From Serinibacter salmoneus (GTDB lineage: Bacteria; Actinomycetota; Actinomycetes; Actinomycetales; Beutenbergiaceae), in contig NZ_PDJD01000001.1 of the NCBI RefSeq assembly GCF_002563925.1, forward strand, positions 2,486,973 through 2,550,972: a stretch of DNA of 64,000 nucleotides, given 5' to 3'. The position numbers were made by a program, and so were the translations under genes. Of this stretch, positions 898 through 45,009 are shown piece by piece; the stretch's first letter is position 1, and each line of letters opens with the position of its first letter. The notes under the pieces are model-generated. The model was not told the origin of the DNA, searched no databases, and saw nothing but the letters and a program-made list of their open reading frames with translations.

Positions 898-1950
898 ATG
901 ACACCGCTCGAGCGCATTCAGCACTTGGGAGGCGCCGCGCGCTTCTCCGAGATCGGAGCCTCTCGGTACGAACTGAACCGCCTCGTCGCACACGGCATTC
1001 TGACGCAACCGGCACGCGGTTGCTACGCGGTCCCTGGAGCGCCGGCCGACCTCGTGGCCGCGGTCCTCTCCAACACGCTCGTCTCGTGCGTGTCTGCCCT
1101 CCGCGTGTACGACAAGGAGATCCCGAGGGGCAATGCGGTCGGCCCGCACCTCTCGGCGCCACCGTCGCGGGGACACCGGGACCATCAGACAGGGGTGCGC
1201 GTGCACTACGAGCACGCCACACGACGCGGCGACCTTCGGCTCGTGTGCCTCCAGGATGCGGCAGCCCGCGCGGCACAGTGCCAGTCGTACGACTCCGCCG
1301 TTGCCATTCTGGATCGGTTGACTCACCGACACGGGCAGGAACTCCTGGACGACGTGCTCGCCCGGGTCCGCAAGAGACGCCCCGCTCGCGCGGCGGCGCT
1401 CCGACTCGACGTGGACGGTCGAGCGCGTTCGCCGATCGAGACCGCGGTGCGCCTCCACCTGCGCAGGAGCGGTTTCGCGGTTGCTGCCGCACCCGTGGTC
1501 CCCGGTGTGGGTGAGGTCGACTTCGTGGTGGAGGGTGCGCTCATTGTCGAGCTCGACGGCTTCCAGTTCCACAGTGATCGGCGAGCCTTCAAACAGGACC
1601 GACGCCGTGATCGCCAGGCTCTGCGGTACGGGTTCCCGACAATGCGGTTCGCATTCGAGGACTGCGACCCGGCACGTATCCAGCGCGAGATCACCCCGGT
1701 GTGCGAGGCGCTCCGGCTCGCTCCCGTGCGCCCGCGCCCGGATCTTCCCGGTGAGTTCCTCAGGTTCCTCCAGCACGAGCGCGAGTCGTGGACCGCACCG
1801 TCGTCGTTCGCGACGGGATGGCGTCATCTCACCGGCCTCGACGCCAGCGAAGTCCGTCGGACGATGGGGCCGATCGTCCCGTGGAGTGCGACCTCCGGGG
1901 TTCGCCCCGCGTCGGCGCTGACGGACAACGCGCCGCGAACCCCTCGCTGA
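898..1950 (+). CDS. DUF559 (Vsr-like nuclease fold) protein with AbiEi-like N-terminal winged helix, copy 1
   Basis: A 350-residue protein. The N-terminal part (about 1-60) looks like the winged-helix domain of AbiEi-type proteins (RYELNRLVAHGILTQPARGCYAV). The C-terminal half holds a DUF559 core resembling very-short-patch-repair endonucleases: D208 in GEVDFVV, E218 and D220 in IVELDG, then FHSDRRAF and a basic RRRDRQAL stretch. The predicted role is DNA binding and possibly cleavage. Biological function is not established for this family. A TAGGTT -10-like hexamer ends seven bases before the ATG, so the mRNA may be leaderless. The TGA stop lies inside a family A repeat unit, and repeat loci flank the gene on both sides. 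A second paralogue-like gene is at 40184-41092. Confidence 0.75.
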   Translation: MTPLERIQHLGGAARFSEIGASRYELNRLVAHGILTQPARGCYAVPGAPADLVAAVLSNTLVSCVSALRVYDKEIPRGNAVGPHLSAPPSRGHRDHQTGVRVHYEHATRRGDLRLVCLQDAAARAAQCQSYDSAVAILDRLTHRHGQELLDDVLARVRKRRPARAAALRLDVDGRARSPIETAVRLHLRRSGFAVAAAPVVPGVGEVDFVVEGALIVELDGFQFHSDRRAFKQDRRRDRQALRYGFPTMRFAFEDCDPARIQREITPVCEALRLAPVRPRPDLPGEFLRFLQHERESWTAPSSFATGWRHLTGLDASEVRRTMGPIVPWSATSGVRPASALTDNAPRTPR

Positions 1951-32730: not shown

Positions 32731-32895
32731 AGGCTCGCTCAGGGAGGTGAGGCCCTCGCTCAGGGAGGTGGACTTGCCCGACTGCGCATCCCGATCCACA
32801 CCCTCAACCCCGTGACCAGCGAGGATGCGGCTGCGCACGGAGAAGAGAGAGCGGTGCTTCCTCCCTGAGCGAGGGGTCGACCTCCCTCAGCGAGG
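32731..32895. repeat. Family A palindromic repeat, locus A3
   Basis: Two units CTCGCTCAGGGAGG (32734-32748 and 32755-32769) and, after about 90 bp, the complement of AAGCACCGCTCTC (32849-32861) followed by two opposite-orientation units (32860-32895). The element is thus A1/A2 turned round. The inner box GTGACCAGCG recurs at 35499-35508. It lies in the 357-bp gap between divergent-function minus-strand genes; the rest of that gap shows only a TTCTCCACA box (complement, 32663-32671). Confidence 0.85.
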
Positions 32896-32946
32896 CTCGG
32901 CGCCGGAGGTCCGTTCTCACGGCACTTTCCCGTCCCGCCCACAGAC

Positions 32947-35560: not shown

Positions 35561-35666
35561 CGACACCGCCCAGCACGGCCCGGTCCCGGCCGGAGCGGAC
35601 CCCACCGGGCTAGACTCACACCCGAGCGTCACCCACAACCGCATACCGTGCATCACCGGCCACATC

Positions 35667-35860
35667 GCCGCGCGGGAGAGCCCGGGTCCGTCCCGGCACC
35701 GAAGGAGCAAGCGCCCCGCCAACCTCTCAGGTCCCCCGTACCGCGCGTCGAGGCCACTCTGGAAAGCAGTCGATTCCGTGTCGGCTCGCCCACGGTGTAA
35801 CCCGCCCCGCCACGCGCAGGGCGGCGAATCTCTCAGGCACCCATGACAGAGGGGGAGTCC
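35667..35860 (+). ncRNA. Tandem glycine riboswitch
   Basis: Two aptamers in series ahead of gcvT. The first has GCGGGAGAG, then CACCGAAGGAGCAAGC and CCTCTCAGG. The second, after a short linker (GGCCACTCTGGAAAGCAG), ends with ATCTCTCAGGCACCCATGACA and GAGGGGGAGT. These are the conserved strands of the gcvT-class RNA. Glycine binding normally turns on the glycine cleavage genes. A -10-like TAGACT lies at 35611-35616, about 55 bp upstream. Confidence 0.88.
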
Positions 35861-37135: not shown

Positions 37136-40018
<2,883 letters not shown>

Positions 40019-40023
40019 CCTTT

Positions 40024-40086
40024 CGCGAGGTGGTTCTGCAGGCACCGCGAGGCAGTTCCGCAGGCACCGCGAGGTGGTTCTGCAGG
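40024..40086. repeat. Family B repeat, locus B2 (left of DUF559 copy 2)
   Basis: Three units of 22 bp, in the reverse sense relative to B3 and B4 (core CCGCGAGGTGGTTCTGCA). The middle unit carries GGCAGTTCCG, a variant also seen in ligD. It starts a few bases after the gcvP stop. With locus B3 it forms an inverted pair around the DUF559 gene. Confidence 0.85.
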
Positions 40087-40183
40087 TCGTCGCGCGCTGT
40101 CCACTGGGGTCTCGCCATCCGGGTTTTCCACACCTTGCGGAAGGGCCAGCCGCGTTCGGGCCAGGTTCCGCCACGATCCGTGC

Positions 40184-41092
40184 ATGGACCTCATCAACGA
40201 CGGCGAGCCCTTCCGATCCGGAGACGCGGCCGGTCTCGGCCTCACCCGATACCGCTGCGAGCGTCTGGTGCGCACCGGATCCTTGCGCCGCGTGGTACGC
40301 GGGGTCCTGGTCGACGGCGGTGTCCCCGACTCGCGCGAACTGCGCGCCAGGGCACTGGCGCTCGTGCTCCCACCCGACGCGATCGTCTCTGACCACTCGG
40401 CTGCGTGGATCTACGGGGTGGACACCTTTCCGCCGGGCGAGTTCCGCGAGATACGTCCGCATTGCCTCGTGCGCCACGGGAAGGGTCGACCTGCCGCCAC
40501 CCGGGCGATCGTGCGGCAGACCACAGTGCCCGACCCCGACGTCGTCCTCATCGGCGGCATTCCGGTGACCTCACCCCTGCGGACCTGCGTGGACCTCCTT
40601 CGTCTGCAGTGGCGTCCGTACGCGCTCGCCGCCGGCGACGCCATGGTGCGCTCCGGCGTCGTCACCCCCGAGGACGTCGCGGTGAGCGTGTCGCAACTAC
40701 GTCGGCTCCCCGGCACCAAGCAGGCGATGGAACTCGCCCCGCGCCTGAATCCGCTCGCCGAGAGTCACGGTGAGTCCTGGATGCGGTGCCGCATCCTCGA
40801 CGCCGGCCTCCCGAACCCGGAGCTCCAGGTCCCCATGGTGGTCGACGGCGTGGAGCGCCGCCTGGATTCGTACTTCCGATCGCAGCGGGTCGCCGCCGAG
40901 TACGACGGCCGCGAGAACCACACCGATCGCCACGACGTGGCGTTCGATGACGAACGCCGAGCGGCCATCTCCCGTCGGCACAGCGTGGCGTTCGTCGTCG
41001 CGACGAGGGAGCGCATCTTCGGGGAGGACGACTCGTTCGAACGTGAGCTGGGCGAGAAGCTGGGCTGCGCCGTCCGCCCTCGCGAGTGGTGA
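40184..41092 (+). CDS. DUF559 (Vsr-like nuclease fold) protein with AbiEi-like N-terminal winged helix, copy 2
   Basis: A 302-residue protein of the same layout as the gene at 898. The N-terminal winged helix is GLGLTRYRCERLVRTGSLRR. The AbiEi-like middle has a SDHSAAWIYGVD segment. The C-terminal nuclease-like core has D228 (RRLDSYF), E239 and D241 (AAEYDGRENH), then DERRAAISRR. The three acidic positions match D208, E218 and D220 of copy 1, but the two proteins are not close overall. A TTTTCCACA box lies 60 bp upstream; copy 1 has TTGTCCACA at 52 bp. The stop codon directly abuts family B repeats, and others lie before the promoter. Confidence 0.75.
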   Translation: MDLINDGEPFRSGDAAGLGLTRYRCERLVRTGSLRRVVRGVLVDGGVPDSRELRARALALVLPPDAIVSDHSAAWIYGVDTFPPGEFREIRPHCLVRHGKGRPAATRAIVRQTTVPDPDVVLIGGIPVTSPLRTCVDLLRLQWRPYALAAGDAMVRSGVVTPEDVAVSVSQLRRLPGTKQAMELAPRLNPLAESHGESWMRCRILDAGLPNPELQVPMVVDGVERRLDSYFRSQRVAAEYDGRENHTDRHDVAFDDERRAAISRRHSVAFVVATRERIFGEDDSFERELGEKLGCAVRPREW

Positions 41093-41157
41093 CCTGCAGA
41101 ACCACCTCGCGGTGCCTGCAGAACCACCTCGCGGTGCCTGCAGAACCACCTCGCGGG
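41093..41157. repeat. Family B repeat, locus B3 (right of DUF559 copy 2)
   Basis: Three almost identical 22-bp units with core TGCAGAACCACCTCGCGG, beginning at the base after the DUF559 stop codon and ending three bases before the stop of the convergent methyltransferase gene. Each unit contains the PstI-like palindrome CTGCAG and an arm pair CCACCTCGCGG, so it can fold only weakly. The opposite orientation relative to B2 is evident. Confidence 0.9.
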
Positions 41158-41160
41158 GGG

Positions 41161-42783
41161 TCAGGCGGGGAGCAGCAGGCCGTCGGTGATCAGGCCCCGC
41201 ACCTGCGGGACCAGTTCGGCGGCCAGGTCGTCGGCGGCGACCTCCAGGAGCGCCCCGAGCGCGCCGACGATCTGCCCACCGGTGAGTTCGCCGTCGCACG
41301 CCCCGACGAACGCCGACAGGGCCGTGTCACACCGCACGGTCCGCCCGAAACCGCCGCCGGCGCGCAGCAGGATCACCCGCGGCTGCGGTTCGCCCGGGGT
41401 GAAGTAGCGCTCGTCGGTGACGTCGGGCGCCACCCTCCAGCGCTCCTCCAGCACCGAGACATCCCTCGCATCCAGGTCCGCGAGGTGGTCCACGGCGGCG
41501 AGTACCTCACCGATCACCGGGCCGAGCGGCTGCCGCACCGCCCCGGTCGCCTCCTCGACCCGGCGCCACCGCTCGCGCGAGTGCCCGGCCGGCCGCCGCA
41601 GGGTGATGAACCCGAAGCCCACGGCCTCCACGCCGCGCTCGGCGAAGTCGCGCAGCCACGCCTCATAGGCATCGTCCCGGGCACGGACCTCCGCCTCGCC
41701 CCCACCCCGGCCGGTCCCCCCGTCGCGCAGCCACATCTCGGCGTACTCGGCCGGGTCGAGCACCTCGCGCTGCACCACCCAGCCGTCCAGGCCCGACTCC
41801 TCCAGCCAGCCGTGCAGGCGCTCGTCCCACTCCTGGCCCCGCACGTGTTCCCAGTTCCCGAGCAGCTGCGCCACCCCGCCGGGTTCGAGGTGCTCCCCGA
41901 CACCGGCGACCAGCGCGTGCACGAGATCGTCGCCACGCCGACCACCGTCGCGGTAGGTGTACTCCGAGACCGCGCCAGAACGGGGTGTGATCACGAACGG
42001 CGGGTTGGAGACCACGAGGTCGAACCGCTCCGAGACCGGGTCGAACATCGAGCCGCGTCGCAGGTCCACCTCGACCCCGGCGAGCATCGCATTCATCCTG
42101 GCGAACTCGAGGGCTCGCGGCGAGACGTCGGTCGCGACCACGCGTCGGGCATGCTGGGCGGCGTGCAGGGCCTGGATGCCGCACCCGGTCCCGAGGTCGA
42201 GCACGCTGACATCGGGGCGCCGCACTGTCACCTGGGCGAGGGTGCGGGAGGCCCGGGAGACGCCGAGCACGTAGTCCTCGGGCAGCGCCCTCCCCCGCGC
42301 CCCGACCCCCAGGTCGGAGGCGATCCACCAGTCCCGGTCCCCGTCGGCCTCCTGTGAGGAATAGGCGAGCAGCCCGACGGCGCCACGCACCTCGTCGTCG
42401 TCCCCGGTGCCCTGGGCGGTGACCCAGCCGAGCGACGCGAGCGTCGAGACACCCGCCCGTGGGAAGGCAGCCTCCACCTGGGCGCGCGTCACCGGTTCAC
42501 CGAGCCGGAACAGGCGAAGCATCACGCCCAGGGGGCTGGCCCCGACCTCGTGCGACTGACGGTCCTGGGCGTCAGCACCCCGGATGTCGGCGCCGCACCC
42601 GAGAGCAAGCCGCGCGGGTAGCAACTCCTCACGCTCGAGCGACTCCGCCGCCACCGGACCGAGCGCTGCGGCCACGCCGTCGAGCGTGTACCCACTGGCT
42701 TCGAGATCACCTCGAAGCGCACGTCGCAACGCTTCCGAATCGCTCTGATCCGCGTCGATTGCACCCAATTGTTTCCCTGTCAT
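41161..42783 (-). CDS. SAM-dependent methyltransferase, HemK/RsmC-like core (DUF7059/DUF7782 type)
   Basis: A 540-residue protein. After an N-terminal helical region, the Rossmann methylase has VLDLGTGCGIQAL (motif I) and VVSNPPFVI (motif IV), as in N5-glutamine or N2-guanine/N6-adenine methylases. The C-terminal 120 residues form an extra domain found in the actinobacterial version. The substrate is unknown; rRNA or a protein Gln are possibilities. ATG at 42783 is chosen because the in-frame ORF upstream reads against the divergent regulator gene. Confidence 0.85.
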   Translation of the reverse strand: MTGKQLGAIDADQSDSEALRRALRGDLEASGYTLDGVAAALGPVAAESLEREELLPARLALGCGADIRGADAQDRQSHEVGASPLGVMLRLFRLGEPVTRAQVEAAFPRAGVSTLASLGWVTAQGTGDDDEVRGAVGLLAYSSQEADGDRDWWIASDLGVGARGRALPEDYVLGVSRASRTLAQVTVRRPDVSVLDLGTGCGIQALHAAQHARRVVATDVSPRALEFARMNAMLAGVEVDLRRGSMFDPVSERFDLVVSNPPFVITPRSGAVSEYTYRDGGRRGDDLVHALVAGVGEHLEPGGVAQLLGNWEHVRGQEWDERLHGWLEESGLDGWVVQREVLDPAEYAEMWLRDGGTGRGGGEAEVRARDDAYEAWLRDFAERGVEAVGFGFITLRRPAGHSRERWRRVEEATGAVRQPLGPVIGEVLAAVDHLADLDARDVSVLEERWRVAPDVTDERYFTPGEPQPRVILLRAGGGFGRTVRCDTALSAFVGACDGELTGGQIVGALGALLEVAADDLAAELVPQVRGLITDGLLLPA

Positions 42784-44942: not shown

Positions 44943-45009
44943 ACCTGCAGAACCACCTCGCGGTACCTGCAGAACCACCTCGCGGTACCTGCAGAACCAC
45001 CTCGCGGGG
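44943..45009. repeat. Family B repeat, locus B4
   Basis: Three near-identical 22-bp units (core TGCAGAACCACCTCGCGG, joined by TACC) start four bases after the stop of the UMF1-like gene. They lie between convergent genes. There is no DUF559 gene next to this copy, so it would be a non-autonomous copy of the B2/B3 family. Confidence 0.9.

Follow-up and report, generated by a model that had tools for sequence, protein, structure and literature searches.

A predicted AbiEi-like/Vsr-type nuclease gene of Serinibacter salmoneus and its dispersed 22-bp tandem repeat family

Repeat-associated enzymes and the gene 2 protein

REP/RAYT systems are the known case in which an enzyme that passes down vertically is paired with a dispersed repeat. 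RAYT genes carry inverted flanking copies of REP, and the REP sequences are dispersed, extragenic and clustered, with an abundance that goes with the cognate gene (parts of PMC2817692, PMC3686654, PMC8049555). The same parts of these papers describe syntenic orthologues that have different repeat classes ("orthoswitch"), broken gene copies and long vertical inheritance. The comparison made here also draws on part of PMC3116915.

Two protein families are relevant to the locus described here. AbiEi proteins recognise repeats of 23 bp, and of two members that were tested neither bound the repeats of the other; AbiEi bends DNA and autoregulates through promoter repeats of similar size (part of PMC7319586). 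The part of PMC3710099 used here classes the MTES_1575 domain among the Vsr-type REases; there the domain sits in a HEPN-containing protein, and no link with genome repeats is mentioned.

The genome of S. salmoneus (G000) is a single contig of 3.27 Mb, from within which a stretch of 64,000 nucleotides (the window) was analysed. Gene 2 (40184–41092, + strand) encodes a 302-aa protein and ends in TGA. Residues 15–195 match AbiEi (PADLOC, E 5.6e-15), and residues 7–41 match Pfam AbiEi_4, the sole family above cut-off, so that the initial annotation's label of DUF559 is fair for the set of homologues and does not hold for the gene 2 protein alone, which matches no nuclease family. Among 44 aligned members, MTES_1575 is matched by 32, AbiEi_4 by 16, AbiEi_1 by 14 and DUF559 by six at E 0.01, and the AbiEi profile PDLC02228 is matched by all 44 at the same threshold. 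E197, E239, D241 and H246 are invariant in this alignment and D228 is nearly so. The C-terminal region is assigned as a putative nuclease through the MTES_1575 and DUF559 matches of the homologues, and it is in these matches and in the conserved acidic pattern that the family resembles Vsr-type/MTES_1575/DUF559 proteins. The gene 2 protein is therefore predicted to consist of an AbiEi-like winged-helix region fused to a Vsr/MTES_1575-type nuclease region. A search of PDB sequences gave a single match, weak and unrelated (E 0.27).

The family shares the N-terminal winged helix and an AbiEi_1-like region with the AbiEi antitoxins of type IV AbiE systems. It differs from them in the fused nuclease region and in having no AbiEii toxin next to gene 2, whose neighbours are gcvP and a methyltransferase gene. 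The repeats of AbiEi lie in one promoter, whereas those of gene 2 are dispersed behind genes. Recognition of a 22-bp unit by the AbiEi-like region is plausible, since AbiEi proteins bind 23-bp repeats (part of PMC7319586).

Like a RAYT gene, gene 2 has inverted flanking copies of a dispersed, cognate, extragenic repeat, and its family includes orthologues with switched repeats and broken copies. Clustering of the repeats, their abundance alongside the cognate gene and long vertical inheritance are further points of agreement. Unlike the Y1/HUH enzyme of RAYT, the gene 2 enzyme would combine an AbiEi-like winged helix with a Vsr/MTES_1575-type nuclease. The Y1 (HUH) transposase family PF01797 is absent among the Pfam families matched by the 44 members, and a PF01797 search of G000 gave no match, the same search being positive in ten of 14 control genomes. 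REP sequences are palindromes with a GT(A/G)G head, whereas the gene 2 units are non-palindromic, lie head-to-tail at 22 bp and have no such head. Since both enzyme and repeat are unrelated to those of REP/RAYT, gene 2 and its repeats work like that system without being a member of it and are new in kind; if any pair of repeat and enzyme were counted as one kind, they would be a variant of that kind. In the open-access literature, judged by title and the start of the abstract, with preprints and most subscription papers outside it, no paper was found that describes dispersed repeats as partners of a DUF559 or AbiEi-Vsr gene.

Locus layout and distribution of the 22-bp arrays

The left array (40024–40086, + strand) is made up of three units of 22 bp whose + strand sequence is CGCGAGG...CTGCAGG, and it starts after a gap of 5 bp from the stop codon of gcvP (37136–40018, + strand). 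Its pitch is 22, and its middle unit is 84% identical to the reference. The right array (41093–41156, − strand) has three units of the same pitch in the opposite sense. Its first base is immediately 3' of the gene 2 TGA, which ends at 41092, and its end is 4 bp short of the end of the convergent class I methyltransferase gene (MTS / DUF7059 / DUF7782; 41161–42654, − strand). The flanks of gene 2 pair as an 86-nt inverted repeat that is 88% complementary, and the left flank scores 60 against the reverse-complemented right flank, compared with 14 for the top of 60 shuffles. The coordinates and this pairing confirm what had been noticed initially, three units on the left, three inverted units on the right and a right array beginning at the base after the stop. 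A third array (44945–45007, − strand) of three units lies directly past the stop of an MFS gene, 3.8 kb off gene 2 and with no nuclease gene alongside. Upstream, a tandem glycine riboswitch (two RF00504 matches, 35663–35856) precedes the gene run that ends in gcvP; an Rfam scan of the window found glycine riboswitches only.

The repeats are not confined to this locus, and their dispersal across the genome, which the initial annotation had missed, changes what gene 2 and its repeats are. The sequence CTGCAGAACCACCTCGCGG has 215 sites in G000 at up to three mismatches, compared with six for the reversed control. Among the 197 of these sites that were listed, 165 form 47 arrays, and 109 of the 111 steps between same-sense neighbouring units measure 22 bp. 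A unit profile was built from 191 units in 59 runs, taken within five mismatches of an 18-mer, the array list being compiled by eye. Positions C2, G3, G5, T11 and G14 are invariant in it, and positions 7, 8 and 18–22 are variable. Units differ by a mean of 2.43 bases inside runs and 3.80 across runs, which points to local tandem growth. The dispersal of the unit across the genome rules out simple slippage tandem repeats.

The two gene 2 arrays show no excess of folding over shuffled sequences (z −0.34 and −0.95), which rules out transcription terminators, and single units, eight from eight families, do not fold above shuffles either (z −0.86 to 0.90). The listed 5' junctions of arrays have no strong motif except a C-rich stretch, hence no footprint of transposition. 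Back-to-back R-F composites of the gene 2 repeat occur in G000 at 278306, 330011, 688595 and 2832430, with a start offset of about 31–33 bp and an unconserved spacer.

Arrays lie behind genes. Gene positions for this analysis and, below, for the array pairs, the element-poor region, the comparison of loci, the flanking gene pairs and the random-gene control came from an author-made codon-usage gene caller, and the background consists of 187 intergenic gaps of at least 40 bp. Convergent junctions hold 26 of 48 arrays, compared with 26 of the 187 background gaps (p 2.7e-8), divergent junctions two of 48 compared with 44 (p 0.002), and co-oriented junctions 20 of 48 compared with 117. The 3' end of a gene is within 22 bp for 43 of 49 arrays, and a few pairs of gene 2 repeats fall inside predicted coding sequence. 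A classical regulon is ruled out by the location of arrays at gene 3' ends and by their near absence from divergent regions. Array orientation shows no dependence on that of the neighbouring gene (25 against 17, p 0.28). It is consistent with the replichore in 29 of 40 pure arrays of G000, seven mixed arrays being excluded (p 0.006; switch point near 1.45 Mb, judged by GC skew).

A cargo transposon was also considered and rejected: five F...R array pairs in G000 and one in G006 are neighbouring arrays around ordinary-looking genes. Three of the five pairs in G000 enclose genes that resemble, by eye, MGMT, GNAT and OsmC. Between 0.951 and 1.698 Mb of G000 there is no listed array or paired element of the gene 2 family or of the gene 1 and L065 families described below (lists made by eye), and a laxer scan added one gene 2 pair at 1.5747 Mb. 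The p value of the largest gap is 1.5e-4 for gene 2, with that pair left aside, 0.21 for gene 1 and 0.075 for L065. Convergent junctions are present inside this element-poor region.

Homologues, co-divergence and mini-elements

Homologues of gene 2 are widespread. The protein is matched in 18 of 24 genomes of the bacterial family, G000 included, at E 1e-10 and in 41 of 394 genomes of the class at E 1e-40; the named homologue loci (n=13) include Miniimonas, Mumia, Serinibacter, Actinotalea and Propionibacteriaceae MAGs. Inverted flanking repeats score above shuffles in 42 of 44 full-length members, in 39 of them by at least 5. The 44 include gene 2 of the window and L054, a broken copy that accounts for one of the two failures. 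Left out were L075 (flank too short), repeat entries of a gene present in two collections, and 27 entries that are truncated, broken or distant; the flank score of L071 is inflated by masked N stretches. Among random genes, flanking repeats score above shuffles in 15 of 297 and by at least 5 in three, two of which sit in loci that also hold family members. Of the 27 truncated, broken or more distant entries 25 were testable, and 13 of these have flanking repeats.

The tandem pitch is 21–22 in most clear cases and 26 in L178. In the close group nearly all units begin with a GCGAG-like sequence and vary in the rest; those of L074, L082 and more distant members differ. Distant AbiEi_4/DUF559-like genes (L062, L002, L060, L044, L056) have flank repeats of their own, some of them palindromic (L062 by eye). 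At about 4020–4105 of L092 (G006), an array of the L052 repeat lies at the 3' end of a gene that resembles topA by eye; a topoisomerase gene also adjoins gene 1 in the window.

Five repeat families proved largely specific to their own genome. In 400-kb samples of G000, G005, G006, G001 and G002, at up to four mismatches, the gene 2 unit has 26 sites in the G000 sample and none in the others. The L052 and L035 units have 17 and 11 sites in the G006 sample, the L053 unit six in the G001 sample and the L037 unit 21 in the G005 sample, and each of these units has none in the four other samples. With other unit registers the own-genome samples give 28 for gene 2, nine for L052, 13 for L035 and six for L053, off-diagonal counts being at most two. 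Whole-genome counts for the L052 pattern are 134 in G006 and two to nine in each of seven others, the controls giving one to five per genome. The L038 (G001) and L057 (G006) families have no sites in the 400-kb samples of their own genomes, so that not every pair of protein and repeat is abundant; one L057-like array was seen by eye in a de novo search for short-period arrays. In that search ten of 14 rows in G006 come from its three cognate families (by eye), five of ten rows in G000 are of gene 2 type, two of five rows in G001 are clear cognate cases, and there are none of three in G002, which has no close homologue.

The distance between repeats tracks the distance between proteins (Mantel r 0.38–0.43, p 0.0005, n=33; units for this and the covariation test were read by eye and typed), and the pairing survives the refuting condition that the initial annotation had set, a swapped or random association of clades and repeats. 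That each protein goes with one repeat, as that annotation had proposed, is supported: five families occur in quantity in their own genome and hardly at all in the other genomes sampled, flanking repeats are near-universal in full-length members and distances co-vary. The initial annotation had also singled out the N-terminal winged helix for comparison with the flanking repeats. In 19 close members a partial correlation, corrected for the remainder of the protein, is kept by the N-terminal 60 residues only (r 0.26, p 0.002); in the set of 33 both N-terminus (0.142) and nuclease region (0.152) keep one. In the residue–base covariation test, pairs exceeding z = 3 make up a fraction of 0.033 in residues 1–60 and of 0.024, 0.024 and 0.017 elsewhere, too small a difference to single out one region. 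In G005, repeat diversity is much the same for the family of a broken gene (0.329) and for that of an intact one (0.307; hand-made unit patterns), which gives no sign that the repeats depend on a live gene. The gene family and the repeats almost certainly belong together.

Syntenic orthologues have different repeats. At the methyltransferase, five of 22 family loci carry a homologue of gene 2 (G000, G004, G005, G006 and G007), and their repeats differ; the gene is reduced to its C-terminal part in G004 and is a broken copy in G005. In G023, gcvP faces the methyltransferase gene with neither gene nor repeats between them (repeats judged by eye), and there is no protein match at 1e-10; this is an empty site of the kind that the initial annotation had suggested looking for. 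One dispersed array of G000 lies between genes that overlap in G006, where the site is array-free. The genome-specific sequence of the repeat favours gain in G000 rather than loss. Four flanking gene pairs were recovered in other genomes, three of them rearranged and so uninformative on empty sites. Among 72,556 plasmid records there are three weak matches to the gene, and among 50,697 phage records there is none.

Gene 1 of the window (898–1950, + strand) encodes a second AbiEi_4 + MTES_1575/DUF559 protein, of 350 aa. Its repeats had initially been called unrelated to those of gene 2, which is nearly right: GCGAGG is common to both and the rest of the sequence differs. The two repeats also differ in arrangement and in pitch (22 vs 21). 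Gene 1 sits between two whole mini-elements. The left one (642–788) consists of inverted 21-bp units around a core, GTCGCCGCAGGTCA, and the right one (1940–2106) has the same layout around ACAGGTCA, with one mismatch. The stop codon of gene 1 (1948–1950) lies inside the first right-hand repeat unit (1937–1957). A dispersed copy (32752–32897) has the core GCTGGTCA, with one mismatch and on the other strand, away from gene 1.

The gene 1 unit has 78 sites in G000 (control five) and the unit of a third nuclease gene, at L065, has 57 (control two). Repeats of both families form R...F mini-elements with offsets of mostly about 107 and 110 bp, respectively; many carry two units per end, long hairpins are predicted and the size is about 110–170 bp. 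Mini-elements of these families also occur at loci L254–L273. They resemble MITEs and REPINs in their inverted ends and long hairpins, and differ from them in that the ends are often two tandem units and that an oriented core is common to families with differing end repeats.

This core, near GC(A/G)TCGNNGCAGGTCA, lies in the middle of the elements of both the gene 1 and the L065 families. Among paired elements, picked by eye from listings, GCAGGTCA is present within one mismatch in 12 of 15 elements of gene 1 and eight of nine of L065, compared with 8% and 6% of shuffles. Its offset is 37–38 of an 89–90-base interior in 11 of 12 gene 1 elements and 34 of 72 in all eight of L065. L167, a locus of another bacterial family whose repeats are TGATCATGCA, has the extended core in each of its flanks, as do two G006 elements that have other end repeats (L098:12786, L095:12917). 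In all, the core is accompanied by four different end repeats, and the genomes concerned belong to two bacterial families. Sites of GCAGGTCA inside such elements number two of 36 in the G000 sample, two of 14 in G006, none of 21 in G001, none of 20 in G002 and one of seven in the window; for a control 8-mer the count is none of 60 in four samples. The core was rejected as part of gene 2 arrays: in 406 kb around these arrays, only four of 35 GCAGGTCA sites have a unit within 150 bp, and three of these four are TGA joined to the unit's own CCTGC. At gene 2 itself, the TGA and the first unit spell TGACCTGC (41090–41097), which is complementary to GCAGGTCA, the word found in the core of the other families. 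Two more gene 2 arrays (L199, L216) also produce it, and chance may be the reason.

Proposed mechanism, alternatives and meaning

Gene 2 is probably a chromosomal repeat-associated nuclease gene that is paired with its own dispersed 22-bp tandem repeat family and operates in the following way. The protein would most likely bind cognate 22-bp units side by side through its N-terminal region and would nick or cut DNA at the bound units. Host repair or replication may then copy units into new places, where copies would be tolerated mainly just behind stop codons and above all between convergent genes, and units would multiply locally in tandem. The gene would keep a fixed chromosomal site over long times, and the specificities of protein and repeat would drift together, so that orthologues in other genera would serve different repeats. 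Judged from sequence comparison, recognition of the repeats by the gene 2 protein is very likely, and it is moderately likely that the protein drives their spread; cleavage would be one step of that process.

In an unlikely alternative, though the one that fares best, a system that organises the chromosome or binds DNA at gene 3' ends would use the arrays as anchoring sites. The arrays would benefit the host and be kept by selection instead of spreading, and the nuclease region would be structural or rarely used. The regular pitch of 22 bp would suit such a positional role, as would the replichore-consistent orientation, which was seen in one genome with mixed arrays excluded, and the large region of G000 that is nearly free of elements; the bending of DNA by AbiEi also fits (part of PMC7319586). 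However, in related genera the homologue at this site goes with a different repeat, so that the whole set of sites turns over, the catalytic-looking residues are invariant in 44 members, and insertion tolerance explains the placement behind stop codons well.

It is improbable that gene 2 is a passive associate, that is, that other machinery spreads the repeats and the gene merely lies in a repeat-rich junction or uses its flanking units as an operator. Arrays are found at many junctions without a gene, and AbiEi autoregulates through promoter repeats of similar size (part of PMC7319586). Such an association is, however, at odds with flanking repeats in 42 of 44 members as against 15 of 297 random genes, with repeats that change along with the protein and with arrays that avoid divergent promoter regions (2/48), and the one transposase type searched for, Y1, has no match in G000. 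Least probable is a defence or self-marking role, with a nuclease directed against incoming DNA and arrays around the genome that either titrate the enzyme or label the chromosome as self: AbiEi (PADLOC matches) and Vsr-type domains occur in conflict systems (part of PMC3710099) and diversification of specificity is typical of conflict, but the neighbours gcvP and methyltransferase include no toxin partner, nothing in the analysis links gene 2 to phage exclusion, and the three weak plasmid matches and absence of phage matches also count against it, although they bear on mobility more than on defence.

The reading of gene 2 as a nuclease that replicates its own repeat has a wider form, which has about an even chance of being right. 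Actinomycetes would then possess a second, independently evolved REP-like system, made up of diversifying AbiEi-like winged-helix/Vsr-type nucleases that each replicate a private repeat with freely evolving specificity. A part of them would mobilise mini-elements of cognate inverted repeats around a common core, and together they would form a large natural set of specificity pairs that look programmable. An unrelated nuclease with the life-style of REP/RAYT would make general rules testable, such as those on repeat persistence, post-stop location and joint change of specificity. It would be a likely reason for many of the short repeats in actinomycete genomes and would give a role to proteins that are at present annotated as AbiEi antitoxin or DUF559. 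The natural pairs of protein and repeat, which number in the dozens, may be usable for working out a recognition code.
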